A DNA stretch of 64,000 nucleotides from Myxococcales bacterium (GTDB lineage: Bacteria > Myxococcota > Myxococcia > Myxococcales > Myxococcaceae). Numbering within the stretch: position 1 is the stretch's first letter; each line of letters opens with the position of its first letter. Below, piece after piece: positions 27,664 to 49,323 of the stretch. The notes under the pieces were generated by a model. It made no database searches and was not told the origin of the DNA. It worked only from the letters and a program-made list of their open reading frames with translations. The stretch spans positions 1-64,000 of the forward strand of contig JACPVI010000071.1 of the NCBI GenBank assembly GCA_016191815.1, written 5' to 3'. The position numbers and the translations under genes were made by a program.

Positions 27664-31866
<4,203 letters not shown>

Positions 31867-31881
31867 CAGTCCTGGCCAGGC

Positions 31882-31932
31882 GAAAAAAAACGCCGCGACT
31901 CCGTGAAAAGGGGGAAACACGGAGCCGCGGCG
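31882..31932 (-). terminator. Strong intrinsic terminator oriented leftward, beyond rpoC
   Basis: Bases 31891-31905 and 31918-31932 form a 15-bp stem with one mismatch around a 12-base loop. On the minus strand the stem is followed directly by eight T (A-tract 31883-31890), a textbook intrinsic terminator for leftward transcription. Rightward, after rpoC, the hairpin has no U-tract. No leftward gene lies just to the right. Confidence 0.75.
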
Positions 31933-32144
31933 GGTGCCCACCATAGGCTTGCCGGGAGAGCCTGACTTCAATCGGCGCGCCACCGGCGAGAGCGGGCAAC
32001 CTGCCCAAGTGAGGACCGTTTTCGTCTCTGCGCTTCTGGCTTTTCAACCCGGAGGATGGTGCGCGCGCACTCCGCTTGCGCTCCGAGCGCATCCTTCCGG
32101 GCGCCCTGAAAAGTTACGCCCACGCCGCAATGCGTCACGGCTCC

Positions 32145-32172
32145 TTGACGTTGTTGGCGCGCTGCGTTATCC
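32145..32172 (+). promoter_or_regulatory. Promoter of the phasin-like gene
   Basis: TTGACG at 32145-32150, a 16-bp spacer and TTATCC at 32167-32172 precede the ATG at 32215 by about 40 nt. The rest of the rpoC-phasin gap (31933-32144) contains no recognisable gene. Confidence 0.55.
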
Positions 32173-32214
32173 GTTTGCTTGCCGCCGAACAGGCGGCGCC
32201 ACAAGGAGCGGGAC

Positions 32215-32616
32215 ATGAAGAACGGCAAGGGGCACTCGCTGCAGCAGTTCGTGAAGGGGCAGCTGGAAGAGGCGAGGGAGCGCTTCGACAACTTCGAGAA
32301 GGAGGCCGAGCAGGTCCTCAAGAAGCTGATCGCCAGGGGAAAGGCCCAGCGGAAGGAGCTGGAGGGATTGATCGTGAAGCTCAACGCGGGCGAGCTGCTC
32401 TCCAGCCCGGCGGTGAAGCAGCTCGGCAAGAGGGCAAGCCAGGCGAGGAGCGAATTGCGGAAGCGGCTGGACTTGCTCCAGGCGAGGGTGGTGCAGGCCT
32501 CGGGCGTGGCCACCCAGAGGCAGGTCAGGGACATCAACCGCGAGCTGGGGAGGCTCTCCAAGAAGCTCGACACGCTGATCGGCAAGCGGGCCGAAGCTCG
32601 CCAGCCGACCGCGTAA
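32215..32616 (+). CDS. Phasin-like helical protein 1
   Basis: 133 residues, almost wholly helical and rich in Lys/Glu/Ala/Gln: HSLQQFVKGQLEEARERFDNFEKEAEQVLKKLIARGKAQRKELEGLI ... LGKRASQARSELRKRLDLLQARVVQ. No signal peptide. Pattern and size fit phasin/PhaF-type proteins that coat polyhydroxyalkanoate granules, or a general coiled-coil protein. ATG at 32215 follows AAGGAGCGGG. A second protein of the same kind follows 129 bp later. Confidence 0.6.
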   Translation: MKNGKGHSLQQFVKGQLEEARERFDNFEKEAEQVLKKLIARGKAQRKELEGLIVKLNAGELLSSPAVKQLGKRASQARSELRKRLDLLQARVVQASGVATQRQVRDINRELGRLSKKLDTLIGKRAEARQPTA

Positions 32617-32745
32617 GACTACGGAATTACAATGAAAAGCAGAGCCGGCGGGGTGCGACTTTCCTCGCCGCCGGCGCTTGTGGTTGACTGCGTGGAGCCC
32701 ACCTCCCGGGGTGGGAGAAGTTCTTCCACGCCCCGGAGACAAGCC

Positions 32746-33090
32746 ATGGAAAAGGAAGAGAGCGTCAAAGAGAAGCGGCAGCTTCCCGAGCTGTTCGAGA
32801 AAGTCTGGGGCCAGGCCCTCCTCGCCGTGTCGACGGCGGAGGAGGAGGCCTCCAGGGTGGTGGGCAAGCTCGCGGACGTGGCGGGGTGGAGCCAGGACGA
32901 GGTGAAGCGGCAGGCGAAGGAGCTGGGGGAGAGGCTGGCGTCCCAGCGCCGAGACATCGAGCGGAGCGTGGAGGAGGGCGTCAAGCGCGCCCTGCAGAAG
33001 TTGCGCGTTCCCCGCCGCGAGGAGGTCGCGGCCTTGAACGCACGAGTTGAGCAGCTCTCCAAGCGCGTGGAGGCGCTGGGGCAGAAGTGA
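32746..33090 (+). CDS. Phasin-like helical protein 2 (PhaF/PhaI type)
   Basis: 114 residues: ESVKEKRQLPELFEKVWGQALLAVSTAEEEASRVVGKLADVAGWSQDEV, an amphipathic helix region, then LRVPRREEVAALNARVEQLSKRVEAL, the 'IP.R.EV..L..R...L' coiled-coil tail characteristic of the PhaF/PhaI phasins that contact granules and DNA. ATG at 32746 follows CCGGAG. No phaC synthase is in this window, so granule function is inferred only from the family. Confidence 0.65.
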   Translation: MEKEESVKEKRQLPELFEKVWGQALLAVSTAEEEASRVVGKLADVAGWSQDEVKRQAKELGERLASQRRDIERSVEEGVKRALQKLRVPRREEVAALNARVEQLSKRVEALGQK

Positions 33091-33134
33091 TTTCGCAGTA
33101 GGGGCGCGGCGGCCGGACCGAGGCAACAAAGGGG

Positions 33135-33797
33135 ATGAGGAAGCTCGCCAGGTGGGCCCAACTGCTGTCGCGCGGCTGCGGGGTGCTTCCCCTGTTGGCG
33201 GCGTTTGCCCTGTCGCTTTCGCCCCGGCCCGCGAGTCAGGTAAAGCCGGTGGAGCCGGCGCCGCTGCCGGCGGACTACCCGGTGATCGACTCGGTGCTGG
33301 CGCGGAGGGCTCCGGAGCTGGGGCTCATCCTCAGGCAGCAGCTTGCGATCGCGATCGCCGAGGAGTCGCGCAAGGCCGGGTACGATCCGCTGCTCGCGGT
33401 GGCGGTGATCGACGTGGAGTCGGATTTCGACGAGGCGGCGGTGTCGCCGAAGGGCGCCCGGGGGCTCATGCAGATCAAGCCCTCCACGCTCTACTTCCTC
33501 GCGGAGAAGGAGGGGCTAAGGCTCTCGCGCGAGGAGGTGGAGTCGGACCCGGCGCTCTGCGTGCGCCTGGGAATCCGCTATCTGCGCTCTTTGCACGACC
33601 GCTTCGGGGAGCTGGATCTGGCGCTGATGGCGTACAACGCCGGGCCCGCCCGGATCCGCGAGGCGACGAAGGCGGGGGAGCTGGACTTTTTCCGGCGCTA
33701 CCCCGCGCTCGTCCGGCGCGACTTCCGCAGGCTCAGGGAAGGTGAAGGGCTGGGCGGGGACTGGGCGCTGGCGCTCAGGACACCTGCGGAACGTTGA
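33135..33797 (+). CDS. Lytic transglycosylase, SLT domain
   Basis: 220 residues with an N-terminal hydrophobic segment (CGVLPLLAAFALSLS) serving as signal peptide or anchor. The SLT catalytic domain spans about 70-185: catalytic Glu95 in VIDVESDFDEAAVSPKGARGLMQIKPST, then LGIRYLRSLHDRFGELDLALMAYNAGPARIRE. These enzymes cleave the glycan strands of peptidoglycan to anhydro-muramyl products. ATG at 33135 follows AAAGGGG. Downstream gap is 159 bp. Confidence 0.92.
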   Translation: MRKLARWAQLLSRGCGVLPLLAAFALSLSPRPASQVKPVEPAPLPADYPVIDSVLARRAPELGLILRQQLAIAIAEESRKAGYDPLLAVAVIDVESDFDEAAVSPKGARGLMQIKPSTLYFLAEKEGLRLSREEVESDPALCVRLGIRYLRSLHDRFGELDLALMAYNAGPARIREATKAGELDFFRRYPALVRRDFRRLREGEGLGGDWALALRTPAER

Positions 33798-33956
33798 GCG
33801 CCGGGTCCTCCGGACGAGAGCGCCCGTTGGATGGCCGGCTGAGCTTCGCTGGGAGCGGCGGTATCGACGCTGAGCGTGACATGGCGCCGCGGTTCAGCTA
33901 CCTTCCGCGCCCTGTTCGCGTTCCCAAGGGGGGTGCCCATTCATAGAAGGGAAGCA

Positions 33957-34774
33957 ATGCCCACGAGGAAGTCGGAGGCTGCCAGGCCACCGGCGCCGCA
34001 GGAGGCGGCTGCGGCTTTTCGCAACACCGAGCCGGCCCGCAAGGCGCTCGAGCCAGCCGAGCTGTTGCCGATCAACGTCGATATTCCCCGGGCGGTGTCG
34101 ACCGCGCTGGGCACGCTCGGGCCGCTCGCGGAGCTGCGGCCTCGCATCATAGCGGAGCTGCCCAAGCACCCGCTCCACATCCTCGAGGGGCTTCGCGAGC
34201 TGGCGATGGCGGCGTGGTACGCCCATCTCCGGGTACTGCCCTCGCGGTCCCCAGTTCGGTGCAGGCATTGATCGATCAGGCCACGCCCCTGCGGCAACAC
34301 CTGATGGTCGCCGCCGAGGCGCTGGCTTTCGTGAACCTGGTGAGCGGCGAGAGGGTGGGGGAGATCCGCTCCGGCAAGGGGCATCTGGATCTGGCGGGCG
34401 ACCTGGTGGCGCTCTCCGCGCTGTTCTCCGACCACTGGGACCAGGCGAACGGCAGGACGGCGGTGCGGCGGGAGGAGATCGAGCGCGCCGCCACGCTTGG
34501 GCCGGAGCTCTTGGTCGCGCTCGGGGCGCGGGAGCAAGAGAAGGAGATCATGCCCACCGAGGCAAGAGACGCGCGTGTGCGTGCCTTCACGCTGTTTTCC
34601 AGCGCATACGGCGAGTGCCGGCGGGCGGTGGCCTACCTTCGCTGGCATGAGGGAGATGCGGAGGAGATCACTCCTTCGCTCTTCGCCAGTCGCTCCGGCT
34701 CGCGCAAGCCGGGCGCCGATGCGGCGGAGACCACGGTGGGTGCGCCTGCTCCTACGGCTCCGGTGACCCCATAG
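33957..34774 (+). pseudogene. Frameshifted gene of an unrecognised helical protein
   Basis: Two overlapping frames together make one plausible protein. From ATG 33957 (after GAAGGGAAG) the first frame reads EPAELLPINVDIPRAVSTALGTLGPLAELRPRIIAELPKHPLHILEGLRELAMAAWYAHLRVLP and stops at 34271. The second frame takes over between about 34239 and 34256 with SSVQALIDQATPLRQHLMVAAEALAFVNLVSGERVGEIRSGKGHLDLAGDLVALSALFSDHWDQ and runs to 34774. The joined product would be about 270 residues, helical and soluble, of a kind I associate with uncharacterised myxobacterial proteins. There is no clear slippery heptamer, so mutation or a sequencing error is likelier than programmed shifting. Confidence 0.6.
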
Positions 34775-34839
34775 GGTGAAATGTAGGTGGCCAGCGGTTT
34801 CGTCGGCTTTCTAGAGCTCCAGGCCGCGCCACCGAGGGA

Positions 34840-35155
34840 AGGCGGACCGCTCTCGGAAGTCCAGTTCGGGCACGGGAGGGCGGTTCGAGCGCGTCCTGCG
34901 TGTAACTTCGTGACGGTCAGGGCGGTCCGACCGCCTTCTGCCGTGTAGCTTCACGACAGTCGGGGCGGTCTGACCGCGGCCCTCCGCATGAGTTCTGCAC
35001 AGTAGGAGCGGTTCGACCTCCCCAGCTTTCTGGGCCCGTGGCAGTAGTAGCGGTTCGATCGCGTGGAACCGGTCTCGGACGTGGTTGCCCCCGCCGGCAC
35101 CGCGCCTTGCGGCGGGCCCAGGTGGTGGAGAGAGGGTAGCGGCTCGGACCACACC
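34840..35155 (+). repeat. Degenerate tandem array, 42-43 bp period
   Basis: Units beginning GGGCGGTYYGA recur at 34878, 34920, 34963, 35006 and 35048 (spacings 42, 43, 43, 42), with weaker copies at about 34840 and 35137. Each contains an imperfect palindrome such as GGCGGT-CCG-ACCGCC, and a second block like CGTGTAGCTTCACGAC is shared by neighbours. No gene is present from 34775 to 35258. The array abuts the RHS promoter. Confidence 0.7.
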
Positions 35156-35214
35156 CCCCCCCCCGATTTGTGCGACAAATATCACATTGAGTCTTTGGTT
35201 CGGTTCTCTACAAT
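35154..35214 (+). promoter_or_regulatory. RHS gene control region: C11 tract, dyad and promoter
   Basis: A run of eleven C (35154-35164) is followed by a perfect dyad ATTTGT-GCG-ACAAAT (35166-35180) and then by a near-consensus promoter, TTGAGT (35187-35192), 16-bp spacer, TACAAT (35209-35214), predicting a start near 35221 and a 38-nt leader to the RHS ATG. The stretch is strikingly AT-rich for this genome. The dyad lies directly upstream of the -35, where an activator or repressor could act. Confidence 0.7.
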
Positions 35215-35258
35215 TCCTGCGACGAGGCCGCCGAACTGCCGCCGCGAAAGGGGAGCCC

Positions 35259-38200
35259 ATGAAGGAGCGCATCCGGGGTGCGGGCTTGCTTCTCGCTGTT
35301 ATCGCCGTCTCCTTCGCTCTGACGCCTCACAGCGCGGAGGCTGCTTGCCAGGGGGCCGCCGGGGAGCATATGGAGAACACGACTGGCGGCGTCTTCTACA
35401 TCTGCGGCACCGACGCCACCGATGAGAATCATCCGCCCAGCATTGTCACGTACGAGTGCGTGTGCTCGGGGACGTCTGACTGCGTCACGCCGTTCGGTTT
35501 GGGGTACGCCAGATTCCCGCCCAACCAGGGCGGCGCCGGCGAGTACCAATGCTGCGCAACCACCCTGACGACTTGCGAGACCCAGAAGAAGGAGTCCGGC
35601 TACGGGACCAGCAACCGCTGTCCATCCGGCGCGCCCGGCTGGCCGTGCTCCGAAGGAGCCGGCTGCACCGTGCCCGGCAAGCAGGGGCACTGCTCGCAGG
35701 GAGAGTGCAAGACGAAGGACGCAAGCGCCAACAGCGACAAGGCGTGCTCGAGCAACGGCGAGCTGGCCTTGGAGTTCGGGACCGAGTGCAAGCCGCGCCC
35801 AGGCATCGAGCGCTCCGAGACGTGCAACGGTGACGACGACAACTGTGACGGGCACGTCGACGAGGGCTGCGGACCACCCGATCCGCCACCGCCGCCCCTC
35901 GACGGCCCGCTGCCGCTCGACGGCCCGCTGCCGCCCCCGGACCCGAATCCCGAAGGGCCCAACTGCTACGACAAGACGAGCGGCCCGGTGGACTTGGCGA
36001 CGGGCAACATGTTTTTCGGGCCCATCGAGCTCGCCTCCTTGCCGACGCCCACCGGCGCGCGGCTCCGAATCGCCCTCTCCTACAACAGCCGGAAGCTGAC
36101 GGCGGGGGCCCTCGGCATCGGGTGGACGATGAATCTCGAGCAGGAGGCGCGCCCCGGCTCGCCGGACTTCATCTACCTCGACGGGAGCGGCGGAGCCACC
36201 GCCTTTCCACGGCCGCTCGCCATCGCGGCCGATGAGAGACTGCAGGGTGCTCGAGTTTTCCCAGACACCGCGCTTGTCTCCCGCGCCCGAAATGGCGCCA
36301 ACCTCGGCCTCTACCTCGCCCGGGCCACCGAAGAAGTGTGCGACGCACTCGGCCGGTGTTTTCCCGTCCCCACCACCCAGCCCCGAGTGGCCTTCGCGGA
36401 CGGCAGCCGCGCGGATTTCACCGAGGCCGGGAAGCTGACCGGTTTTCTGGACCGCCAGGGCAACCCAGTGGGCGTCGAGCGGGACGCCACCTCCGGCGTC
36501 CCCGCGAAGTTGCTGCAGGGCGCGAGGGCGGTGGAGCTTCAATACGTGTTTGCCGGCGGCCGCGTCACCGGAGCCACCGCCTCCGTCAAGGCGGGCAGCG
36601 CAGCCGTCGACATTTCACGCGCCGTCATCGACTCGGACGGCTACCTGACGGCCATCTGCTCCGTGGGCCAAGCAGGCACGCCGGGCAACAACTGCACCTG
36701 GCCCGGCGAGTCGAGCAGCCCGTGCAGTGGCCCCGGAGAGCGGGCGCTCTGGAGATTCAAGTACCAGCAGGTCTGCACCAAATCCGGGTGCGAGCCGGTG
36801 AAGCGCCTCTCGGAGGTGATGGACGAAACCTGCGCGGTGGTGGAGCGCAACCAGTACGGCCTGGTTTCTGGCGTTGGCGTGGCCGTCACCTCGAGCTCCA
36901 CCACCACCGAGTCGCTGAGCCTGAGCTTCATTCCGGACGCGACGAAGCCCTTCCGTGTCGCGGAGGTGCAGCTGACGCAGGCGCTCAGCCCGGCTACCCC
37001 GCCCCAGGGCAGCCTCCAGCCGGCCTTCGTTGGGCCGTCCATTGCGAAGTTGGACGGGCTGGTGTGCCGGGTGGCGGATGTGTCGGGCAGTTGCGGCTGC
37101 GGCCCCGCGATGGCGCGCGGCTGGTTCCGCGACGAGTTTGGAGCGCCCAGGGTGTCCTCCTTCACCAGCGCCGAGTCGCACACCTCCTACTCGAGGGCGC
37201 CCGGCACTTCTCTGGACCCACACCGCTTCGGCTTGGTGACGCAGGAGACAAGGACGGATGCCAGCGCCTTCGCCTCCGGCAGCAAGGTTTTCACCTACGC
37301 CTACCAGCACCCGACGGTGCGGCGGCCCACCGTCATCATCGAGCCGGGCGCGAGCGGCACCACCAAGCAGACCGTCTACGACTTCGACGATGACGACCCC
37401 GCCCACCCGTGCGTGGACGGCCAAACTCCGCAGGCTGGCACCCCGCTCATTCCCAACGAGAAGCCCACGCGCTTTCTCTGCCGCATCGCCGAGATGGCCG
37501 ATGCGGCCGACTCCACCACCTGGCGGGTAACGCACTTGAGGCACGACGCCGCGGGGAGGGTGCTTCGGGTGGAGGGCCCGTCGGGAGTGGTGGTGCACGA
37601 GTACTACCCGGACAACGACGCCGACTCCTTGCGCGCGGGCATGTTGAAGAAGACGTCGCGGGTGGGAGGCGGCGTCACGCTGGCGACGACATTTTCCGAC
37701 TACCACTCCACTGGCCAGCCCAGGCGGGTATCGGGTCCAAACGGCGAGGTGACTCTCTTCGAGTACGACGAGCGCGGGAGGGTGGTGAAGCGCACGGCCC
37801 CCGACGGGGCGGTGACGCTCACCTCCTACGAGGCGAATTCGAAGCCCAGTGCGGTGGTGCTGCCCAGGGGCAACTCCATCCACTTCACCTATGGGACGGG
37901 CGCCGACGAGCTCGGTCGGCTTGTGGAGGTGGCCTGGCACGAGGGCGCCACCCGGACGACGCGGTTGGTCCAGCGCCGGCGCCTCCTCTATGACAGAGGC
38001 GGAAACGTCCTCCTTGAAGAGCATTTCGAGGGCAACAGCAGCACCCCGGTGCGGCGGATTCAGCGCGACTACGACGAGGCACACCGGGTGGTGCGAGAAT
38101 TCGGCGCCGACTTGGCGGACAAGAAGGAAAACTCGTACCACCACGGCCGGCTCTCGAAGGTGGTGGACGAGCTCGGCCGGCCGACGGACTTCGCCTTCGA

Positions 38201-41200
38201 CGGCTTCGGGCGCCTGCGCCGGGTTTCCGCCCCGCTCGGGGCGGTGACGGCATACGGCTACGACTCCCGGGACAACCTCACCTCCGTCACCGACGCCAAC
38301 GGCAACACCACCTCCTACGCCCACGACAGCTTCGACCAGCTTCTCTCCGTCACCTCGCCCAACACCGGTTTCACCTCCTACCGCTACACTCCCGACGGGC
38401 TATTGGCCGAGGTGGTGGATGCGGAGGCGAGAAAGAAGCTCCAGGCGGTGGAGACGGCTTACGACGGCCTGCGCCGGCCCACGGCGGAGAAGCTGATTCA
38501 GTACGTCGAGGTGCCGGTGCCGTGTCCTCCACTCACCATCTGCGAGCCGCAGTTGCGGCGCGCCGGCGAGAAAGCGCTCGTGGCCTTCGGCTACGACGTG
38601 GGCGCCAACGCGCTGGGGCGGCTATCCTCGGTGGACTTCTCCGCCGGGAAGGTGGCCTACGGCTACGACGCCGCGGGCCGGCTGGAGCGGGAGAGATGGA
38701 CACTGAGCGGCCTCTCCACTCCACTGGACTTCGACTACACCTACCACCCCGGAGGCGCCCTGGAGAGCCTCGCCTACCCGCCGCAGACTCCCGGCGAGGA
38801 CAGGCTTTCCCTGGAGGTGGACTTGGGCTTCGATGAAGAGGTGTCGGAGCTGCGGCTGGGAGGCAAGGTGCTGGCGCAAGGAGTGGCCCACCACCCCTTC
38901 GGCGGAGGGGTGAAGCGCTTCACCCGCGGCAATGGCCAGGTGACGGGCATCGGGCAGGACTTGCTCGGCCGGCGCACCTCGGTGGAGGGGAAGCCGCTCA
39001 ACCTGGGCTACACACTCTTCCCCGACGGCGAGGTGGACACCGTGACGGAGGGCGGCGACGTCGCGCGGACCAGGAAGTACGGCTTCGACAACCTCAGACG
39101 CCTCACCAGCGCCTCGTACACCGCGCCGGGGGTGACGGCTCCGCTCCTCTCCGAAAGCTACGACTACGACTTGGCGGGCAACCGGCTCCTCAAGACGCGC
39201 GACGGGAAGCAATTCAAGTCGGAGTTCGACTTGAGGAGCGGGACGCAGACGCCGGCGAACGACTTGCTCCGGAAGGTGGTGGACCCGTCGGCCTCGGGGG
39301 AGGAGTGCCGCGGGCCGGGCGCGAGTGCCGAAGCGGCTGGAGGCGGAAGCGGGAAGCCGGCCGGACAGGGTGGCGGCAACGGCAAGGGAAACGGCGGGGG
39401 AAAGGGCAAGGGCGCCGAGCAGGGTGGTGGCCAGGGGAAAGGAGGCAGCGCCTCCTGTCCGGGCGCCAACGGCGTGCGGAACAGAAACCTCGCTGGCGTG
39501 GAGGCCGGGTGGAAGGAGCTGCTCCGGGCCACGAGGCAGCTCGTCTTCGACTTGCCGCTTCTTTCGGAGGAGGAGATGTACAGCCGGACGCAGGAAATCC
39601 TCCAGGGCCTCTCGAAGTGGATGGAGGAATTCGACATCTCCGCGCCGGCGCTGCATGCCATCCTCCTCTCCGCCCGGCACGGGAAGGAGTCCTTCGCGGA
39701 CGTCTTCCTGGAGTTTCTGAGGAGGCGGGCCGAGGGCAAGGCCTTCGGCGATGAGGACTTGAAGCTTCTGCAGGCGCTCGTCAACCTCGCGGAGAAGGCG
39801 CAGGTGCGGGAGGCGGGGGCAATCGACCCGCGGTGGGAGTACTCCTACAACGCCTCGGGCGACGTGGTGGAGACGAAGTACGTGGTGCCCGGGGAAGTCA
39901 TCCCCCAGAGCGGCGGCCGGCGCTTTCCCGACTTGGAGACGGTGTACTGCTTGGGCTACGACGAGCTGCGGAGGCTTACCGGGGTGGAGTACCTGACTCG
40001 CCTCGTTGCGCCGGGGGCCTCGCCGGCGTGCCAGGACACATCGCGGGTGACGCTGGCGGAGTACCGGTACGACTTCGAGAATCGCCGCGTCTACAGCAAG
40101 GTGGCGGGCAAGGAGGTGTTTTCGCTGTATGGGCCTTCCGAGGAGCTTCTGGCCGAGGCGTCGGCGTCGGGGGTGGTGGAGCGGCTCTTCGCATACCTGG
40201 AGGGAGAGCCATTGGCGATGGTGGTGACGAAGGAGGGGACGGCGCTTCGGCCCTCGACCCCGCCCCAGCCGGGCTGCTCTTCGGCGGGAGCCGGCTACAC
40301 CACGCTGGCCGTCTGCCTCGCGCTACTCGTCATCGCGCTCCGGCGGCGAAACGGGCGCGGCGCGGTCCTCTCGGCGCTGCTTGTCTTTGCGGTGCTCGCC
40401 TCCACCTGCGGACCGGTGGAAGGCACCAAGCCGCACGGACACGGCTCGGCGAAGAAGAAGCCAGGGCGCGGGGCATCGCTCAAGGACCCGCTGTACTTCT
40501 TTCACAACGACAGGCTGGGGACGCCGGTAAGGCTGACGGACGAGAAGGGGAAGGTGGTGTGGCGGGCGGAGTACCGGCCGTTCGGGGACTTGCAGAAGTT
40601 GGAGACGGACCCGGATGGCGACGGGGTGCACGTGGAGAACCCCTTGCGCTTCCCCGGCCAGTACGACGAGGCCATCGCCGCCCTGCTCCAGGCCCAGGGC
40701 CCCTACTACAACTGGCATCGGTGGTACTCGCCCGACATCGGCCGGTACCTCCAAGTAGAGCCAAAGCTGCAGTACCCGCAGTTCGCGTGGGCGCGGGCGT
40801 CGGCGGGAGGAACTATGCCCGCGTTCTCATACGCATACGACAACCCGCTGATCTACGTAGACCCTACTGGGTTGCAGGGGACCTGTGCCGGAGGACGCTG
40901 CGCTGCGATCAACTCGATGGGCGAGCTCGCCGAGGCTGGAGGAAAGGCCGCGCGGGCGGCCGCAGCCGCAGCAGCAGCCACTGCCGCGGCCTCGCAGACG
41001 AAGTCGTGCGACATTGCGACGACCGAGACAAAGGAAACCGAGGATCCGTATAACAAGTGCAGCGAGCAGCTCACCTCGTGCAGCCGTTGCTGTAGTATGA
41101 AGATCAAACCGATCGCACCGGACAAGTTTCCGACGTGCATTTCCGAGTGCCTATTGGTTTTTCACATTGCTTGTCGGGAAAGCACCCGACCGCCGAGTGC

Positions 41201-41330
41201 TGGCCCGGCAATCTGCGCAATCCATGAGCTTCGTGGATCGCCTCATCGCTCCGCTTCGCCTGGTACGAACGGCTCGACAGGGCCGTTCCGTTTGGTCCGA
41301 GTATCTTCTTTCCAGCAGCGGGCCGGCTGA
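35259..41330 (+). CDS. Giant secreted RHS-repeat protein with polymorphic C-terminal tip
   Basis: 2023 residues. Signal peptide at 1-28 (LLLAVIAVSFALTPHSAEA). Cys-rich region 30-190, a MopI-type CNGDDDNCDGHVDEGC near 198, and a Pro linker. A DUF6531-like start CYDKTSGPVDLATGNMFFG (about 235) is followed by RHS/YD repeats (FEYDERGRVV, YGYDSRDNLTSVTDANGNT and many more). Insertions: a Gly/Lys-rich linker (about 1360-1400) and a helical block (about 1408-1524). Two adjacent hydrophobic segments (about 1680-1718) precede the RHS core (YFFHNDRLGTPVRLTDEKG ... DIGRYLQVEP ... YAYDNPLIYVDPTGL, about 1743-1872). The final 150 residues are a variable tip with a poly-Ala helix and at least nine Cys. RHS proteins form shells that hold a toxic or adhesive tip. 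ATG 35259 follows AAAGGGGAG. Confidence 0.9.
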   Translation: MKERIRGAGLLLAVIAVSFALTPHSAEAACQGAAGEHMENTTGGVFYICGTDATDENHPPSIVTYECVCSGTSDCVTPFGLGYARFPPNQGGAGEYQCCATTLTTCETQKKESGYGTSNRCPSGAPGWPCSEGAGCTVPGKQGHCSQGECKTKDASANSDKACSSNGELALEFGTECKPRPGIERSETCNGDDDNCDGHVDEGCGPPDPPPPPLDGPLPLDGPLPPPDPNPEGPNCYDKTSGPVDLATGNMFFGPIELASLPTPTGARLRIALSYNSRKLTAGALGIGWTMNLEQEARPGSPDFIYLDGSGGATAFPRPLAIAADERLQGARVFPDTALVSRARNGANLGLYLARATEEVCDALGRCFPVPTTQPRVAFADGSRADFTEAGKLTGFLDRQGNPVGVERDATSGVPAKLLQGARAVELQYVFAGGRVTGATASVKAGSAAVDISRAVIDSDGYLTAICSVGQAGTPGNNCTWPGESSSPCSGPGERALWRFKYQQVCTKSGCEPVKRLSEVMDETCAVVERNQYGLVSGVGVAVTSSSTTTESLSLSFIPDATKPFRVAEVQLTQALSPATPPQGSLQPAFVGPSIAKLDGLVCRVADVSGSCGCGPAMARGWFRDEFGAPRVSSFTSAESHTSYSRAPGTSLDPHRFGLVTQETRTDASAFASGSKVFTYAYQHPTVRRPTVIIEPGASGTTKQTVYDFDDDDPAHPCVDGQTPQAGTPLIPNEKPTRFLCRIAEMADAADSTTWRVTHLRHDAAGRVLRVEGPSGVVVHEYYPDNDADSLRAGMLKKTSRVGGGVTLATTFSDYHSTGQPRRVSGPNGEVTLFEYDERGRVVKRTAPDGAVTLTSYEANSKPSAVVLPRGNSIHFTYGTGADELGRLVEVAWHEGATRTTRLVQRRRLLYDRGGNVLLEEHFEGNSSTPVRRIQRDYDEAHRVVREFGADLADKKENSYHHGRLSKVVDELGRPTDFAFDGFGRLRRVSAPLGAVTAYGYDSRDNLTSVTDANGNTTSYAHDSFDQLLSVTSPNTGFTSYRYTPDGLLAEVVDAEARKKLQAVETAYDGLRRPTAEKLIQYVEVPVPCPPLTICEPQLRRAGEKALVAFGYDVGANALGRLSSVDFSAGKVAYGYDAAGRLERERWTLSGLSTPLDFDYTYHPGGALESLAYPPQTPGEDRLSLEVDLGFDEEVSELRLGGKVLAQGVAHHPFGGGVKRFTRGNGQVTGIGQDLLGRRTSVEGKPLNLGYTLFPDGEVDTVTEGGDVARTRKYGFDNLRRLTSASYTAPGVTAPLLSESYDYDLAGNRLLKTRDGKQFKSEFDLRSGTQTPANDLLRKVVDPSASGEECRGPGASAEAAGGGSGKPAGQGGGNGKGNGGGKGKGAEQGGGQGKGGSASCPGANGVRNRNLAGVEAGWKELLRATRQLVFDLPLLSEEEMYSRTQEILQGLSKWMEEFDISAPALHAILLSARHGKESFADVFLEFLRRRAEGKAFGDEDLKLLQALVNLAEKAQVREAGAIDPRWEYSYNASGDVVETKYVVPGEVIPQSGGRRFPDLETVYCLGYDELRRLTGVEYLTRLVAPGASPACQDTSRVTLAEYRYDFENRRVYSKVAGKEVFSLYGPSEELLAEASASGVVERLFAYLEGEPLAMVVTKEGTALRPSTPPQPGCSSAGAGYTTLAVCLALLVIALRRRNGRGAVLSALLVFAVLASTCGPVEGTKPHGHGSAKKKPGRGASLKDPLYFFHNDRLGTPVRLTDEKGKVVWRAEYRPFGDLQKLETDPDGDGVHVENPLRFPGQYDEAIAALLQAQGPYYNWHRWYSPDIGRYLQVEPKLQYPQFAWARASAGGTMPAFSYAYDNPLIYVDPTGLQGTCAGGRCAAINSMGELAEAGGKAARAAAAAAAATAAASQTKSCDIATTETKETEDPYNKCSEQLTSCSRCCSMKIKPIAPDKFPTCISECLLVFHIACRESTRPPSAGPAICAIHELRGSPHRSASPGTNGSTGPFRLVRVSSFQQRAG

Positions 41331-42000
41331 CCTCGCCGAGATCAGACGCCTGCCTCGAGTTCTGCGCGTGGTAAGTTGGCGTCGTGTTTGGCGGCAAGCC
41401 GGAACTCACGAGGCCCGTGAGTACGCGCTCTGCGAACTCGCCGAGCTCCGTTCCACGCCGCGAGGCCTCACCGCGTACCTCTGGAAGTGCGTCGATGACC
41501 AGAGATTCTCGAGCGCGGCGAACCTCCTGAGCGCTTGCGAACCGGTACTGTCGGAGACGACGACGCGGCAACTCCTCGGGCTGCTCGCTGAGCGTTCGCC
41601 AGTCAGCGACCGTCGTGAGATCGCAATGACGCTGCTTTGTTGTGGCCGGCGGACGTTGCGGATGCAGACCTTGCTCGCCACCTCTGGCATTTGGGATTGG
41701 AGGCGGCTGATTCCCCGCGAAGCCGGAGCGGTCCCGATAACACTTTGCCTTCCGCCGAAGTGGAGGCTGCAGTGCGATCGCTGCGTACGCTTCGGCGTTC
41801 CGCCCAAGCTCGTCGTTGGGCCCAAGGGCACGATTTGTTGGGCATGCCTCTCAAAACTCGAGTCGCATGCTCCAGGGGAACCAGAGTGCCTGCTGTGCGG
41901 TCACGCTGGATCCGCACTTTGTGCTGTGTGCGAGCCACAGGTGCGGTCCCTGTTGGCCAGAACCCCAGGCCCCGCGCAACCGCCATGCGGCTCCGTGTAG
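41224..42000 (+). CDS. Unknown protein with ClpX-like zinc finger; candidate RHS immunity partner
   Basis: 258 residues from ATG 41224 (MSFVDRLIAPLRL), overlapping the end of the RHS frame by 107 bp. Residues about 15-160 are helical and HEAT-like (YLLSSSGPADLAEIRRLPRVLRVVSWRRVWRQAGTHEAREYALCELAEL). The C-terminal 80 residues contain CDRCVRFGVPPKLVVGPKGTICWACLSKL, resembling the C4 zinc ribbon at the N-terminus of ClpX, then CLLCGHAGSALCAVC. No signal peptide, so cytosolic. Position directly behind a polymorphic RHS tip is where immunity genes occur, but the sequence matches no immunity family I know. Base composition is lower in GC than the flanks, suggesting transfer with the tip. Confidence 0.6.
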   Translation: MSFVDRLIAPLRLVRTARQGRSVWSEYLLSSSGPADLAEIRRLPRVLRVVSWRRVWRQAGTHEAREYALCELAELRSTPRGLTAYLWKCVDDQRFSSAANLLSACEPVLSETTTRQLLGLLAERSPVSDRREIAMTLLCCGRRTLRMQTLLATSGIWDWRRLIPREAGAVPITLCLPPKWRLQCDRCVRFGVPPKLVVGPKGTICWACLSKLESHAPGEPECLLCGHAGSALCAVCEPQVRSLLARTPGPAQPPCGSV

Positions 42001-42026
42001 TGGACCTGGAGCACAGTCTCGATTGA

Positions 42027-44795
42027 CTACCGGAGCGCTAACCCGGGCGGGACGGTGTCGCTGAGCGCGCGGGCCTCGTCGGCCTCGCTCAGCTCCACCA
42101 CCTCCCGGAGCATCCTCGTCCATTCCTCCGGCGCTCCGGCTCGGCCCAACGCGGCCATCGCGCTCGCCCGCAGCTCGTCGTCGAGATCCCGCGACCGGTC
42201 ACCGGTGAGCCGCGCGAGCTGGGCGAGGGCGAACGGCGCGCCTTCCACCTTCGTCAAGCCGAGCTCGAGCAAGAGCGCTACCCAACTCCCGGCCAGCTCC
42301 GGCTCGACGGTGCGGTGGCCGCTCCCGTAGATGGGAGCTCGGGCCCCCAGCCGCCCCAGCGCCCAGGCCCACGGCCCACCCGACTCCGGCGAGGCCCGAA
42401 GGCGCGCGGCGATCCACCCGCCCAGCTCGGCCTTCTCCGCTGGCTCCAGGTGCTCGAGCGAGGCGGCGGCGCGGATCATCTCGTCGAGGCCCTCGGGTTG
42501 TGGACCCCTGAGCCGCTCCTTCGCCTTGGAAGCCTCGGGGGGGACCCTCCGGGCGAGGTGAGGCCGCAGGTACTCCCAGATCCGCCGCTGCGGCTCCACC
42601 GAGAGGCCTCCAGCCACCCGCCGCCACATCACCCAGAACTCGATCCACACCGCCTTCTCCGAGTGGTTCTGCACCAGCTCGGAGAAGAGCCTGGCGGTCT
42701 GCTCGCAGCGCCAGGCATCCAGCGGGTAGCCGAAGCCCGGCCGGAGCGAATAGCCGAGCAAGTGGAAGAAGACGCGCTCGTGGTCCGCGGATCGCCGCCG
42801 CTTGGCCGCGCCCGCGACCAGCGCGCTCCACAGCTCCCGCAACACCGGCAGCCTCCAGCCCTCGCGGGGGCCGAGCACCTTCTCGAGAGAGCGCCCAAGC
42901 TGCTTCACGTCCTTGGGGCCGACCGGGAGCGGCTTGTGGCCGAACACGCGGTGGATCTGCTCCGACGCTTCGGCGAAGCGCGCCGGCATCGACTCCGTCA
43001 CCGTGAGCGCGGTGCTCGCCTTGTCCCCCCGCAGCTCGAACTCCAGCCGCCAGCGCTCGATGGTTGCCGCGGCGTGGCAGAACAGCTCCAGGGTGCCAAT
43101 CTCTGTGAGAGTGGCGGCGAGGTGCACCGACGCGGCGGCGCTGCGCGGGTCTGCGCCCTTGAGCAGGGTGTGGATCGGCGGAAGAGGGCGGAAGGCCTCC
43201 CCTGACAGCTCCACCACCTCTCCGGGACGGTCGACCCGGTCCGCGGTGGTCGAGTAGAGCTGGAAATGGACCGGCCGCCCGAGGGTCAAGGTGAAGCTCT
43301 GGGCGGCGAGGTCGACCGACTGCCCTTCCTCGAAGCCGCGAGGGATGAGACAGACCCCACGCCGCTCGCCTCCGGCGACTCCCACGAAGTAGGCCCTCGC
43401 CGCGCCGCCGCCGATCTTCTTGCCGAGGCCCCGGCGGGCGAGCCCGTAGCAAGCGGCGCCCCGCGCCACCGCGAGATCCAGCGAGTCGTGCGCGAGCAGG
43501 GGAATGCGCGGCGAGGACGGCCAAAAGCCGGAGACCGCCTCCACCAGCGCATCGCAGAGGGCAGGGGAGTTGAAGACGCCTCCGTTGAGGAGGATCGCGT
43601 CGGGGCGGTTGAGCCCCTCTGTCGCAGCGGCCCCCCCGAGCGCCTGTCGCGCTGCCTCGGAGTGCGCGCGCAGGAAATCCGCCAGATGCCGGGTGATGGC
43701 GGGATCCTGGGCGTAGGGGAGCCCCAGCTCCTTGAGGGCCGCGCGGCTGCCGCGCCGGGGTGGCTCGTCGGGAGCGGTGCGGGGGAAGAAGCCGCGGGCG
43801 ACCACCGCCTCCACCTCCGCGCGGGTCAGCTCCGCGGCAAGCGTGGCGCCGACGAGCTTGCTCCCGCTGCCGGCGATGGAGACCGCGGTGCGCTCCGGCG
43901 CCATCGGCGAGAGCAGGGTTTCCTTGGCGAGCCGCGCGGCCTGCAAGAGCTGGATCCACTGGCTCGCGGCGAACCGCCCTCCGGTGCCCGCCAGCTTCTC
44001 CTCGAGGAGGTTGGCGAGCGCCGCGTCCATGTTGTCGCCGCCCAGCATCAGGTGCTCGCCCACCGCGATCCGGCGGAGCGCCGGTCCCTCCGGGAGGGCC
44101 TCCACCTGGACGAGGGTGAAGTCGGTGGTGCCGCCGCCCACGTCGACCACCAGCACCAGCCGCACACCGGCCAGGGCGCGGGAGAGATCGCTCCGGTGCC
44201 GGGAGGTGAAGTCATAGAAGGCCGCCTGCGGCTCCTCGAGCAGCACGAAGTGCCCAAGGCCGGCCTGCCGGGCGGCGCTGACGGTGAGGGCCCTCGCGGC
44301 CTCGTCGAAGGACGCCGGGACGGTGAGCACCACTTCCTGCTCGGGAAGGGGCGTCTGGGGGAAGGCGGCGGTGAAGGCGTTCGACAGGTGCGCAAGCAGC
44401 AGTGCGGAGGCCTGGACCGGCGTTAGCTTGTGGACCTCGGCGGGCGCGCCCCAGGGGAGGATCGGCGCCTGACGGTCCACGCCGGGGTGGCAAAGCCAGC
44501 TCTTTGCGGAGGAGACCAGCCTCGAGGGCACGCGCGCTCCCTGCCAGCGGGCGAGCTCGCCCACCACCCGAGGCGGATCTGCCGGGCCACCCCAGGGCAG
44601 CGCGAGGGCGCGCTCGGGCAGCTCGTGGGGCGAGGGAAGGTAGACGCAGGAGGGCAACAGCGGGCGCGCGCCGGCCTCGCCGGGCCGCACCAGCTGAACC
44701 ACGGGAAAGTCCCGCACCGCCGCCCGCTCGCCCCCGGCCGGATCGACGAAGGCCAGCGCGCAGTTGGAGGTGCCGAGATCGAGGCCGATGATCAT
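42027..44795 (-). CDS. Hsp70-family ATPase with DUF3731-like C-terminus
   Basis: 922 residues. The N-terminal 450 residues are an actin/Hsp70 ATPase: phosphate loop 1 IIGLDLGTSNCALAF, EVVLTVPASFDEAARALT, phosphate loop 2 VLVVDVGGGTTDFTLV, GEHLMLGGDNMDAALA, and NGGVFNSPALCDAL. The canonical DnaK substrate domain and EEVD-type tail are absent; instead there is a long helical C-terminus (WRLPVLRELWSALVAGAAKRRRSADHERVFFHLLGYSLRPGFGYPLDAWRCEQTARLF) that matches, from memory, DUF3731. Start at ATG 44795; the longer frame upstream runs through a repeat tract. It is the last gene of the leftward DUF2760-Hsp70-Hsp70 unit. Cellular clients are unknown. Confidence 0.88.
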   Translation of the reverse strand: MIIGLDLGTSNCALAFVDPAGGERAAVRDFPVVQLVRPGEAGARPLLPSCVYLPSPHELPERALALPWGGPADPPRVVGELARWQGARVPSRLVSSAKSWLCHPGVDRQAPILPWGAPAEVHKLTPVQASALLLAHLSNAFTAAFPQTPLPEQEVVLTVPASFDEAARALTVSAARQAGLGHFVLLEEPQAAFYDFTSRHRSDLSRALAGVRLVLVVDVGGGTTDFTLVQVEALPEGPALRRIAVGEHLMLGGDNMDAALANLLEEKLAGTGGRFAASQWIQLLQAARLAKETLLSPMAPERTAVSIAGSGSKLVGATLAAELTRAEVEAVVARGFFPRTAPDEPPRRGSRAALKELGLPYAQDPAITRHLADFLRAHSEAARQALGGAAATEGLNRPDAILLNGGVFNSPALCDALVEAVSGFWPSSPRIPLLAHDSLDLAVARGAACYGLARRGLGKKIGGGAARAYFVGVAGGERRGVCLIPRGFEEGQSVDLAAQSFTLTLGRPVHFQLYSTTADRVDRPGEVVELSGEAFRPLPPIHTLLKGADPRSAAASVHLAATLTEIGTLELFCHAAATIERWRLEFELRGDKASTALTVTESMPARFAEASEQIHRVFGHKPLPVGPKDVKQLGRSLEKVLGPREGWRLPVLRELWSALVAGAAKRRRSADHERVFFHLLGYSLRPGFGYPLDAWRCEQTARLFSELVQNHSEKAVWIEFWVMWRRVAGGLSVEPQRRIWEYLRPHLARRVPPEASKAKERLRGPQPEGLDEMIRAAASLEHLEPAEKAELGGWIAARLRASPESGGPWAWALGRLGARAPIYGSGHRTVEPELAGSWVALLLELGLTKVEGAPFALAQLARLTGDRSRDLDDELRASAMAALGRAGAPEEWTRMLREVVELSEADEARALSDTVPPGLALR

Positions 44796-44796
44796 G

Positions 44797-44942
44797 AGAG
44801 TCGAGCGTCGAGCGTCGAGCGTCGAGGGCACGCGTCGAGCGACGTCCAGCGCTCGACCGTTCTCAGTCGACCTGCGGGCGTCAAGGGCGCTCGACGGCCG
44901 CTGGACGGCTCACTCGACACTAGACCCTCGACTGTCGACCTC
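44797..44942. repeat. GTCGAG-type heptamer repeat tract, copy 3 (both orientations)
   Basis: Perfect GTCGAGC heptamers begin at 44801 and, after a degenerate centre, GCTCGAC/ACTCGAC/CCTCGAC units run in the opposite sense to 44942, so the tract could fold on itself. It fills the gap between the two Hsp70-like genes and supplies the last residues (VDSRGSSVE) and stop codon of the upstream one. Confidence 0.7.
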
Positions 44943-46805
44943 GTCGCCACCTCTGATCCTCACACTCAGCTCCAGTTTCCACCGGCCGGCGCCGCCGTTC
45001 TCCAAGCAGCGAAGCTCGAGGGAACCCAGCTCCGTCACCGCCGCCTGCAGGTTCACCGGCACCAGCCGGCCTTCTTCTCCCGCCCGCCCCGGCAGCGCGG
45101 TTTCGATCGGGGAGAGCTCCTGTAGATCTTCCTCGGACGCCACGTCCTCCAGCGTCGTCCCCACTCGATCGTCCCGGCGCACCGAGGAGCAAAAGAAGCG
45201 AAAACGCGTCGGCTCCCCCACCCATAGGCCGAACTCCTGCGGCGGGACGTCGGCCTGCGTGCCTTCCTCCATCCCGAACGGCGCCACGCACACCGCCCGC
45301 ACCTGCGGCTCTACCCCGGGCACCGCCGGCATCGCCGCCTCCACCCCCACGTAATACGAACGCGCCGTCCCTCCGCGGATCCGCAAGCCGTGCCCACGCC
45401 TCACGAAGCCGTAGTAGGCCGCACCCCGCGCCACCGCGAGGTCCAGGTCCACTCCCTCCAACTCGCGCGCCGGCCCTCCTCCGTCTGACTCCAGCCAGCC
45501 GTTCAAGACCTCCAGCACCCGCGCCTTGAGCGGCCCCGCCTTGAATACCCCTCCGTTGAACAGCACCGCCGTCGGATGCACGAAGGAGCGGCCCGACAGC
45601 TCCACCGGCACCTCCCTCGCTCCCGCCAACGCCTTCGCCTGCCGCGTCAGGAACATGCCCAGGTGCCTCGTCACCGCCGGGTCCTGGGCATACGGCAACG
45701 CCATCTGCGCCAGCCCCACCCGCCGAGCCGTCGCCGGCACCTCGGAGTGACCCACCCGGGGAAAGAAGCCGTCGGTCAAGAGTGACTCCAGCTCGGAACG
45801 CTCGAGCACCGCCTTCACCGTCGCACCCACCAGCGAGGAGCCTCGACCGGGGACCGCCACCGTCACCTCGCGCAGCGCCGCGTCCGCGAACAGCCGCTCC
45901 TTCGCCACCCGGCATCCGTGCGTCAACGAGGTGAGCTGCCAGCCGTCCAGCTTCTTGCCCTCCTCGGACAGCTTGCGCGAGAGCGCGTGCGAGAGGGCCA
46001 GATCCATGTTGTCCCCGCCCAGCAGGATGTGATCCCCCACCGCCAGCCGCGACAGCCCAAGCTCTCCCTGGTCCTCGGACACCGCGATCAGCGAGAGGTC
46101 CGTCGTCCCGCCCCCCACGTCCACCACCAGGATCACGTCCCCCACCTTCACCTTCTTGCGGAAGGAGTCGCCCAACAGCTCCAGCCAGGCGTAGAGCGCC
46201 GCCTGCGGCTCCTCCAGGAGCACCACCTCTCCGAGCCCCGCCTTCGCCGCCGCCTCCAGCGTGAGATCCCGCGCCGCCGCGTCGAAGGACGCCGGCACCG
46301 TCACCACCACCTCTTGCGCACCGAGGGCGTTCTCCTCGTCGCTCCGCGCGAAGGCGTGATCCCACGCCTCCCGAAGGTGCCGCAGGTAGCGCGCCGACGC
46401 ATCCAGCGGAGAGACCCTCCGCACCTCCGGCGGAGCCTGCCAGGGGAGCAGCGGAGCCCGCCGGTCCACCCCTCGGTGGCAAAGCCAGCTCTTCGCCGAG
46501 GACACCAGCCGCGCGGGCACCGTCGCCCCGTGCGAGCGCGCCAGCTCTCCCACCACCTCGTGGCTGTCCGGGTCCCAGGGCAGCGCCAGCCCCCCAGAGG
46601 GGAACTCGCTCGACGATGGCAGGTAGAGGAACGAGGGGAGAAGCAAGCGCTCCTCGACCGTCCCCGGGGCGGTGAGCTGGGGCAGGGGAAGCACCGCCTG
46701 CGCCCTCCCGCGCGGCTGCGGCCCTGCCTCGGCCCGCTCGAGCGAGAGGTAGGAGAGCGCCGAATGCGTCGTGCCGAGATCGATGCCGATCGAGTACCGG
46801 CTCAC
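44910..46805 (-). CDS. Hsp70-family ATPase, short form
   Basis: 631 residues from GTG 46805. Motifs: SIGIDLGTTHSALSYL (phosphate 1), EVVVTVPASFDAAARDLTLEAA, VILVVDVGGGTTDLSLI (phosphate 2), GDHILLGGDNMDLALSHAL, and FNGGVFKAGPLKARVLEVLNGW (adenosine side). It shares with its neighbour the insertion LVSSAKSWLCH.GVDR.AP.LPW, so the two are paralogues. The C-terminus is a beta domain (TELGSLELRCLENGGAGRWKLELSVRIRGG) resembling the first part of an Hsp70 substrate domain and then ends abruptly in repeat-derived residues. Translation is coupled to the DUF2760 gene (GTGA overlap). No J-protein or GrpE lies nearby. Confidence 0.88.
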   Translation of the reverse strand: MSRYSIGIDLGTTHSALSYLSLERAEAGPQPRGRAQAVLPLPQLTAPGTVEERLLLPSFLYLPSSSEFPSGGLALPWDPDSHEVVGELARSHGATVPARLVSSAKSWLCHRGVDRRAPLLPWQAPPEVRRVSPLDASARYLRHLREAWDHAFARSDEENALGAQEVVVTVPASFDAAARDLTLEAAAKAGLGEVVLLEEPQAALYAWLELLGDSFRKKVKVGDVILVVDVGGGTTDLSLIAVSEDQGELGLSRLAVGDHILLGGDNMDLALSHALSRKLSEEGKKLDGWQLTSLTHGCRVAKERLFADAALREVTVAVPGRGSSLVGATVKAVLERSELESLLTDGFFPRVGHSEVPATARRVGLAQMALPYAQDPAVTRHLGMFLTRQAKALAGAREVPVELSGRSFVHPTAVLFNGGVFKAGPLKARVLEVLNGWLESDGGGPARELEGVDLDLAVARGAAYYGFVRRGHGLRIRGGTARSYYVGVEAAMPAVPGVEPQVRAVCVAPFGMEEGTQADVPPQEFGLWVGEPTRFRFFCSSVRRDDRVGTTLEDVASEEDLQELSPIETALPGRAGEEGRLVPVNLQAAVTELGSLELRCLENGGAGRWKLELSVRIRGGDEVDSRGSSVE

Positions 46806-47359
46806 GGCAGTTCAACCTCCGCCGGCGCGAGGATCTTCGGGTCGATCGCCGCGGGAGGCGGAGGCAGCTTCACCTCCCTCGCGGCCCAGCCATGGTGCTT
46901 GAGCGAGCCCTTGAACGGCGGCTGGCCGGCGACGTTGCCGGTCAGCCGAATCCGCTGCGCGTCGAACCCGGCGGCCACCGTGACGCTCGCTCCCTCGGCC
47001 TCGGGCAGCACCGGCTCGATCGCCAGGTATTGCCCCACCACCTTCCGGCAGCCCTCGTGCACCACCCGCGCCGCGGCGCCCACTTCGGCGTCGGAGTAGC
47101 CGGCGATCTCCTCCTGGAGGAAATCGATCAGCCGGCCCTCCCGCTGCAGCATGGAGAGCAGAAACAGCCCCGAGGCGTGCGCCTTCTCCGGCGGCACCTC
47201 CTCCTGCGGCTTGGCCGCTGGCGGAAGCTCCGGCGCTCTTCGGGCCCGGTAGGCCGGCGCGATCGCCAGAGCGAATCGCGCGTCGAAGAGAATCCGCATC
47301 AGGCAGACGAACGCCATCGCCAGCCGGGCGAAGAAGGAGAGCGCGGCCGTCTCGTTCAT
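46802..47359 (-). CDS. DUF2760 domain protein
   Basis: 185 residues: SFFARLAMAFVCLMRILFDARFALAI near the N-terminus, a Pro-rich segment, then ASGLFLLSMLQREGRLIDFLQEEIAGYSDAEVGAAARVVHEGCRKVVGQYLAIEPVLPEAEGASVTVAAGFDAQRIRLTGNVAGQPPFKGSLKHHGWAAREVKLPP. That pattern is the DUF2760 family, which is found next to Hsp70-like genes in proteobacteria and is uncharacterised. ATG 47359 opens the protein; upstream frame is antisense to another gene. First gene of the leftward unit, overlapping the short Hsp70 start by 4 bp. Confidence 0.85.
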   Translation of the reverse strand: MNETAALSFFARLAMAFVCLMRILFDARFALAIAPAYRARRAPELPPAAKPQEEVPPEKAHASGLFLLSMLQREGRLIDFLQEEIAGYSDAEVGAAARVVHEGCRKVVGQYLAIEPVLPEAEGASVTVAAGFDAQRIRLTGNVAGQPPFKGSLKHHGWAAREVKLPPPPAAIDPKILAPAEVELP

Positions 47360-47444
47360 GGCCGCCCGGATAGAGGAAGGCGCCTGCGAATGCACTCGAA
47401 ATTTTCCCCGCCCGTTCCCGTTTCCACAGCTGCCGCCGCGTCCC

Positions 47445-47474
47445 TTGACAGGCGGGCCTACCTGCCGGTGAATG
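47445..47474 (+). promoter_or_regulatory. Promoter of the secreted-protein/tgl/recO unit
   Basis: A perfect TTGACA at 47445-47450 with TGAATG at 47469-47474 (18-bp spacing) in the divergent gap. A start near 47480 would exclude the ATG at 47472 and support initiation at 47502. Confidence 0.5.
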
Positions 47475-47501
47475 CTCAAGTTTTTCGAGAGGAAAAGCGC
47501 A

Positions 47502-48098
47502 ATGTGCTCCCGACTGCTCGCTGTTTGTGCCGCGCTGGCTCCCCTGGCGGCGCCTGCCGGCTCGGTGTACCTGAACAACGTCAACATCGACGGAGTGACC
47601 AACCAGCGGTTCGAGAAGGTCTCGGTGCGGATCGATGAGAAGGGCAACGTCTTCATCGACGCCCCCGGCTACGCGGTGAAGGCGGTGGAGGGAGCTCCAC
47701 GCCAGACGCCCCGGCCGGACGACCCAGGGCCCGGCACGCTCACCCGCCGCTACTGGATGGTCACCGAGCAGACCGTCCCGGGGATGACCGAGTATGACGT
47801 CGACGTGTACATCAACGCGAAGTGGATCCGGAAGCTCCGCAACAACGAGGAGCAGATCGTCACCGAGATCACCAAGCACCTCACCCCCGGGAAGAACACC
47901 GTGCTCCTCACCGCGAGGAAGGTGCCGGTCGGCCAATCGCGGAAGAGCTTCTCGCCCGAGCACGTGTTTCGGGTGATCATCGGCGAGGGCAACGTGGGGG
48001 GCGACAACGTGATGATCGACAGCCCGCTGGTGAAGTTCGAGCGCAGCGCGGCGGATACCGCCGACGTCTCCCAGGAATACACTTTCTCCACCCGCTGA
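47502..48098 (+). CDS. Secreted protein of unknown function
   Basis: 198 residues from ATG 47502, preceded by GAGAGGAAA; an ATG at 47472 adds ten residues but would be upstream of the predicted transcript start. Signal peptide MCSRLLAVCAALAPLAAPAGS. The mature protein is beta-rich: VYLNNVNIDGVTNQRFEKVSVRIDEKGNVFIDAPGYAVKAVE, YWMVTEQTVPGMTEYDVDVYINAKWIRKLRNNEEQIVTEITKHLTPGKNTVLLTARKV. No family is recognised. It heads a run of tightly spaced rightward genes that includes tgl. Confidence 0.75.
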   Translation: MCSRLLAVCAALAPLAAPAGSVYLNNVNIDGVTNQRFEKVSVRIDEKGNVFIDAPGYAVKAVEGAPRQTPRPDDPGPGTLTRRYWMVTEQTVPGMTEYDVDVYINAKWIRKLRNNEEQIVTEITKHLTPGKNTVLLTARKVPVGQSRKSFSPEHVFRVIIGEGNVGGDNVMIDSPLVKFERSAADTADVSQEYTFSTR

Positions 48099-48099
48099 C

Positions 48100-48558
48100 G
48101 TGTTCGCCATCGACGACAGGCTGAGGGGCCTCCCCGCCACCCGCGATCAGGTGGTGGCGGTGCACCAGTCGATCAACTCGCCCCACCTGGCGGTGCCGGG
48201 GAAGAGGGCCGGGCCGGCCCAGGCGTACATCGTCGGGCTCCGCAGCGGGGCGGGCTTCTCCGTCTACGTCTACCTGCACCTCGGAGACAGCGGCGACTGC
48301 GCGATGTACGTGCCGAGCCGGCGCAACCTGGGGCCCGAGGAGTACCAGCAGCAGGAGAACGATGCCCTGGGCTTCGTCGAGTCGATGGGCTTCATGATGG
48401 ACAACATGAATTTCCGCGGCCTCACGCCCGAGGACCAGGAGGAGATGCTCAAGGCCCTCCCCGTCTTCCAGCGCGAGCCCCGGGCGCCAAGCGGCGAGAA
48501 GGGCCCCTCCCGGCCGTCGAAGAGCGTGCTCCTGGGGAGGCTGCTCGCCTCGTTCTGA
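48100..48558 (+). CDS. Unknown protein upstream of tgl
   Basis: 152 residues starting with GTG one base after the preceding stop. Soluble, no signal peptide: RLRGLPATRDQVVAVHQSINSPHLAVPGKRAGPAQAYIVGLRSGAGFSVYVYLHLGDSGDCAMYVPS, then GPEEYQQQENDALGFVESMGFMMDNMNFRGLTPEDQEEMLKALPVFQR. No family is recognised. Its close coupling on both sides (1 and 8 bp) suggests a link with Tgl and type IV pili, by position only. Confidence 0.75.
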   Translation: MFAIDDRLRGLPATRDQVVAVHQSINSPHLAVPGKRAGPAQAYIVGLRSGAGFSVYVYLHLGDSGDCAMYVPSRRNLGPEEYQQQENDALGFVESMGFMMDNMNFRGLTPEDQEEMLKALPVFQREPRAPSGEKGPSRPSKSVLLGRLLASF

Positions 48559-48566
48559 GGGAAAAG

Positions 48567-49319: not shown

Positions 49320-49323
49320 CCCC

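Follow-up and report, generated by a model that had tools for sequence, protein, structure and literature searches.

Operator and enhancer arrays described elsewhere hold activator sites set at whole helical turns. For homopolymeric tracts near promoters, the length of a C-stretch in Bordetella pertussis influences transcription of the surface genes fim2, fim3, and fimX; this stretch belongs, together with the fim box, to a defined promoter element, and its alleles differ among strains (PMC1891110). An influence on transcription is also considered very likely for a Bordetella tract 5 bases upstream of the -35 of bhuR (PMC1891110). In Helicobacter pylori, sabA carries a T-tract near its -35 with documented length variation, acting as a rheostat; shortening the A-tract 3 nt from the -35 of hp_0350 altered promoter activity, and shortening the T-tract 30 nt from the -35 of pyrG was without effect (PMC4081817). 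For myxobacteria, the literature we searched on homopolymeric phase variation yielded only work on low-complexity protein regions.

Here we describe the region upstream of a gene for an RHS-repeat protein in a 64-kb window, by which we mean the whole stretch of DNA that was analysed. Like the Bordetella fim genes, the RHS gene has a C homopolymer upstream of it in a high-GC genome; however, 22 nt separate the tract (eleven consecutive C, hereafter C11) from an intact -35 downstream. The arrangement resembles sabA in that a homopolymer precedes the -35 and parts the core promoter from elements farther upstream, but the tract is of C and 22 nt distant, whereas that of sabA is of T and close to the -35. 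By analogy, 22 nt would fall between the effective (3 nt) and ineffective (30 nt) distances in H. pylori. With regularly spaced operator or enhancer arrays the locus shares near-palindromic cores, 42–43 bp apart, upstream of a promoter; it differs in that its array is a single locus in the genome and in the family (a set of 96 genomes, with no congener among the genomes searched).

We lean, a little beyond even confidence, towards an ordinary regulated promoter of a lineage-specific RHS gene, with an operator-like array and a C11 tract that is probably passive. Sequence, spacing, statistics, uniqueness, and the absence of the cassette from relatives are observed; promoter activity, regulator binding, and passivity of the tract are what we infer. 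Smaller than a case of phase variation would be, but useful, is the finding of an operator-like array ahead of an RHS gene within a lineage-specific cassette: its four-turn spacing is fixed, and it occurs at one locus only.

Layout and predicted promoter of the upstream region

The features of the region, in window coordinates, are as follows.

34880–35062, + strand: regular array of five near-palindromic cores (0 of 100 shuffles reach five copies; locus-specific in genome and family)
35139–35151, + strand: degenerate sixth core copy, GCGGCTCGGACCA (from sequence)
35154–35164, + strand: C11 homopolymer (from sequence, genome rank, and expectation)
35166–35180, no strand: perfect dyad ATTTGT-GCG-ACAAAT (from sequence), centred about -48 from the predicted transcription start
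35187–35214, + strand: sigma-70-like promoter, with -35 TTGAGT at 35187–35192, N16, and -10 TACAAT at 35209–35214
35247–35255, + strand: likely ribosome-binding site, AAAGGGGAG (from sequence)
35259–41330, + strand: gene for an RHS/YD-repeat protein of 2023 aa, ATG at 35259
33800–47470, no strand: lineage-specific cassette, from the SLT gene to the gene at 47472 (absent at that position in Myxococcus, Corallococcus, and Citreicoccus)

The eleven C, the perfect 6-3-6 dyad, and TTGAGT-N16-TACAAT are all present, just as the original prediction had described them. It had also placed C11 between the array and the dyad with no gap; the five in-phase copies, however, stop at 35062, 91 bp short of C11, and only the degenerate sixth copy adjoins the tract. 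This copy retains 2 of 6 dyad pairs and, at 89 bp (8.5 turns) from the fifth, does not share the helical phase of the array; it is possibly a chance resemblance.

The promoter had been called strong; it has 9 of 12 sigma-70 consensus bases (Myxococcaceae promoters can differ from this consensus) and no extended -10. In its favour, it is the one sigma-70-like match within 18 kb (31800–49800), with 0.6 expected, and it lies in AT-rich surroundings: 35165–35214 (50 bp) is 62% A+T inside a window of 68% G+C, and the most AT-rich 50-bp stretch of all 64 kb begins at 35166. As the sole match in 18 kb, set in the 50 bp of the window that are richest in A+T and followed by a likely ribosome-binding site and a signal-peptide-like start, 35187–35214 is a credible predicted promoter. 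A housekeeping-type promoter at this position would start transcription at about 35221, ~38 nt upstream of the ATG.

The dyad occurs once in the genome, and a whole-genome search for a dyad regulon returned no second site with at most one mismatch. When the AT-rich surroundings were shuffled with their composition preserved, arms of at least 6 arose in 8.8% of cases with loops of 0–10, and in 4.1% with loops of at most 4; because chance accounts for about 4–9%, the dyad taken alone is weak evidence, suggestive rather than strong.

No intrinsic terminator was found in 34700–35400, and a known RNA family was rejected, with matches at chance level only. Translational phase variation, in which the tract would sit inside the coding sequence, was likewise rejected: the open frame reaches back as far as 35085, but GC content by codon position is not coding-like there, and the likely ribosome-binding site and signal-peptide-like start belong to 35259.

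The array of five cores

The array is the most significant part of the region. Its cores (GCGGTTCGAGCGC, GCGGTCCGACCGC, GCGGTCTGACCGC, GCGGTTCGACCTC, and GCGGTTCGATCGC) follow the near-palindromic pattern GCGGTYYGAnCGC, each with dyad symmetry at 4–6 of 6 positions, and start at 34880, 34922, 34965, 35008, and 35050—spacings of 42, 43, 43, and 42 bp, or four helical turns. Tandem Repeats Finder describes the array as a 43-bp unit in 2.4 copies. The intergenic region was shuffled 100 times with dinucleotides preserved, and five in-phase copies never arose; the shuffle maxima for in-phase cores were four when 4 mismatches were allowed and two when 3 were allowed. Pairwise identity among the cores (15 nt) is 67–93%, whereas the spacers are similar at the shuffled level, except in copies 1 and 2, which are alike over the whole 43-bp unit, with similarity dropping downstream; this contrast of core and spacer is partly circular, as the core limits were picked after the copies had been seen.

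The paired pattern GCGGTYYGA-N32-35-GCGGTYYGA has four matches at the locus, all in the array, and 8 elsewhere in the 96 family genomes, which is about the control count. No second array above control was found in the genome or in those 96 genomes. We read the array as putative, regularly spaced protein-binding sites, judging from its sequence; we know of no regulator for GCGGTYYGACCGC. For a general regulator it would be odd that its sites, array and dyad alike, have no second occurrence in the genome.

Five near-palindromic 13-bp sites, four turns apart, would form a same-face array at about -335 to -165, most likely bound by a dimeric, cooperative regulator that would control the RHS gene. 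From the centre of the nearest in-phase site to that of the dyad is ~117 bp, and at this distance contact would probably need DNA looping.

Given the spacer sequence shared by copies 1 and 2, a decaying tandem repeat is a possible origin of the array. In its fullest form, which we think unlikely but worth weighing, the array would be a decaying minisatellite with no regulatory role, the tract and dyad would be neutral intergenic sequence, and the promoter alone would matter. The similarity of copies 1 and 2 over the full unit, falling downstream, would fit such decay, as would the lack of a comparable array in genome or family and of a regulon for the dyad. However, copies 4 and 5 retain both the core and the 42–43-bp spacing with spacers at the shuffled level, and neutral decay is disfavoured because it should spare neither core nor spacing. 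The operator-like reading remains the one we prefer.

Other repeat classes were also considered. CRISPR was rejected, as the cores are 15 nt long at 67–93% identity, which is unlike CRISPR repeats; tRNA-derived repeats were rejected with no tRNA near the array. Locus L055 (17529–17638) has a 32-bp tandem array of 3.4 copies, 94% alike, which is one of few in ~600 kb with a period that is not a multiple of three.

The RHS gene and its cassette

The RHS protein begins with a signal-peptide-like N-terminus and a Cys-rich N-terminal region, followed by DUF6531, RHS repeats, and an RHS-associated core; the last two are matched by PF05593 (2.1e-36), PF03527 (1.1e-13), and TIGR03696 (6.3e-11). Among solved relatives, RHS-type proteins such as Tse15 and Tse5 come nearest to it by sequence. 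The protein is probably exported, and is a probable cell-surface or contact-dependent protein. For a C-terminal toxin domain after the RHS core, Pfam and NCBIfam gave no significant match, only weak sub-threshold ones. The C-terminal end (window 40800–41330) is a Cys-rich stretch and not a known toxin domain; the overlapping downstream ORF at 41167–42000, a possible partner gene, matches no family.

A search with an N-terminal piece of the RHS protein gave no orthologue, only short matches in 4 relatives, and GTDB contigs likewise yielded none. Conserved upstream DNA, sought in 40 relatives, amounted to a single 28-bp GC-rich match. Near the starts of its other RHS genes, the genome shows no C/G run of at least 7 and no array core.

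Comparison loci in Myxococcus, Corallococcus, and Citreicoccus were reached through homologues of the phasin gene. The order in these relatives is rpoC, phasin, SLT, and then, within a few hundred bases, the homologue of 47472–48098, followed by that of 48567–49319. The window has ~13.6 kb extra between SLT and 47472, containing the RHS gene, its entire upstream region, and two Hsp70-like genes. Because these ~13.6 kb are missing at the same position in the relatives, the cassette was probably inserted in this lineage. The Hsp70-like genes are adjacent and both on the minus strand, at 42027–44831 (with DUF3731) and 44910–46805.

Upstream of the array, the gene at 33957–34774 has an apparent frameshift near 34235, where GC content by codon position switches frame; in relatives, the homologues of its second half are contained in open frames ~270–460 aa long. 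The frameshift is either a real mutation or an assembly error.

Rarity and possible role of C11

Among the matches listed (100 of 109), C/G runs in the 6.8-Mb genome number 53 of length 8, 11 of length 9, one of length 10, and three of length 11, along with one C17 run at a contig end; among these same matches, no internal C/G tract is longer than C11, which ties with two others. All remaining C/G runs of the window are of 7 or fewer, and in a 400-kb sample run counts drop ~5- to 6-fold per extra base from length 5 to 7. Markov models of order 2, 3, 4, and 5 predict 2.6, 3.2, 1.5, and 0.28 runs of at least 11, and at least three internal ones are observed; order 2 is that of the Bordetella tract screen (PMC1891110). 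C11 is rare yet unremarkable under the usual null, and an outlier solely against the fifth-order model. A run of at least nine C followed by TTGA-N18-20-TANNNT occurs at three other places in the 96 family genomes, against four control matches; the combination of C-tract and promoter in the family is at chance level.

As C11 ends 22 nt upstream of the -35, it is next to the promoter. It lies upstream of the core promoter, in the stretch that joins this to the array, and is most likely a passive spacer, perhaps one of unstable length. One C gained or lost would rotate the array by ~34 degrees relative to the promoter, and an effect is mechanically possible.

The original prediction took slippage of C11 as a classic route to phase-variable expression. 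The parts are real; no result here has C11 switching the RHS gene on or off, the indirect evidence ranges from neutral to negative, and phase variation of this gene through C11 is on balance unlikely. In the version we regard as distinctly improbable, C11 would be prone to slippage and act as a rheostat or switch: with each change in its length the array, along with any regulator bound to it, would rotate and shift against the promoter, creating clonal variation in RHS expression. This would suit a tract that is joint longest of the internal C/G tracts among the matches listed, has a credible -35 at a distance of 22 nt, and precedes the gene for a large, probably exported protein; it would also suit the fifth-order expectation (0.28, with at least three observed) and the precedents of the Bordetella fim promoters (PMC1891110) and Helicobacter sabA (PMC4081817). 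However, lower-order Markov models show no excess of such tracts, the C-tract and promoter are not enriched together across the family, the other RHS genes of the genome are without tracts, and the pyrG tract of H. pylori, 30 nt from its -35, is without effect (PMC4081817). A shade less probable again is a contingency locus in a social myxobacterium, where C11 slippage between the helically phased five-site array and the promoter would tune or switch RHS cell by cell. If true, homopolymer-based phase variation, best known in host-adapted bacteria, would extend to a large-genome myxobacterium and reach a probable cell-surface or contact-dependent protein.

Very improbable, finally, is an error of sequencing or assembly in the length of C11, with the true tract shorter or longer: the assembly is a draft in 89 contigs, one contig opens with a C17 run, and the gene just upstream looks frameshifted near 34235, but the other C/G runs of the window are of 7 or fewer and two more internal tracts of this length occur elsewhere in the assembly.

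Three other long G tracts of the genome have positions of their own. The G11 at L011 1501–1511 (G000:C11:27086–27096) begins six bases past the -10 of a promoter-like TTGACT-N17-GACAAT; it lies about at the expected transcription start and is a possible transcript-slippage site. A G10 at L013 1501–1510 (G000:C36:2567–2576) is within a long open frame for a repeat-rich, surface-like protein, ~1000 aa in the stretch read and open at both ends, and a change in its length would shift the frame. The G11 at L014 1501–1511 (G000:C56:37653–37663) falls where a histidine-kinase frame ends, just ahead of the start codon of a response regulator, and its length sets the end point of the kinase frame.
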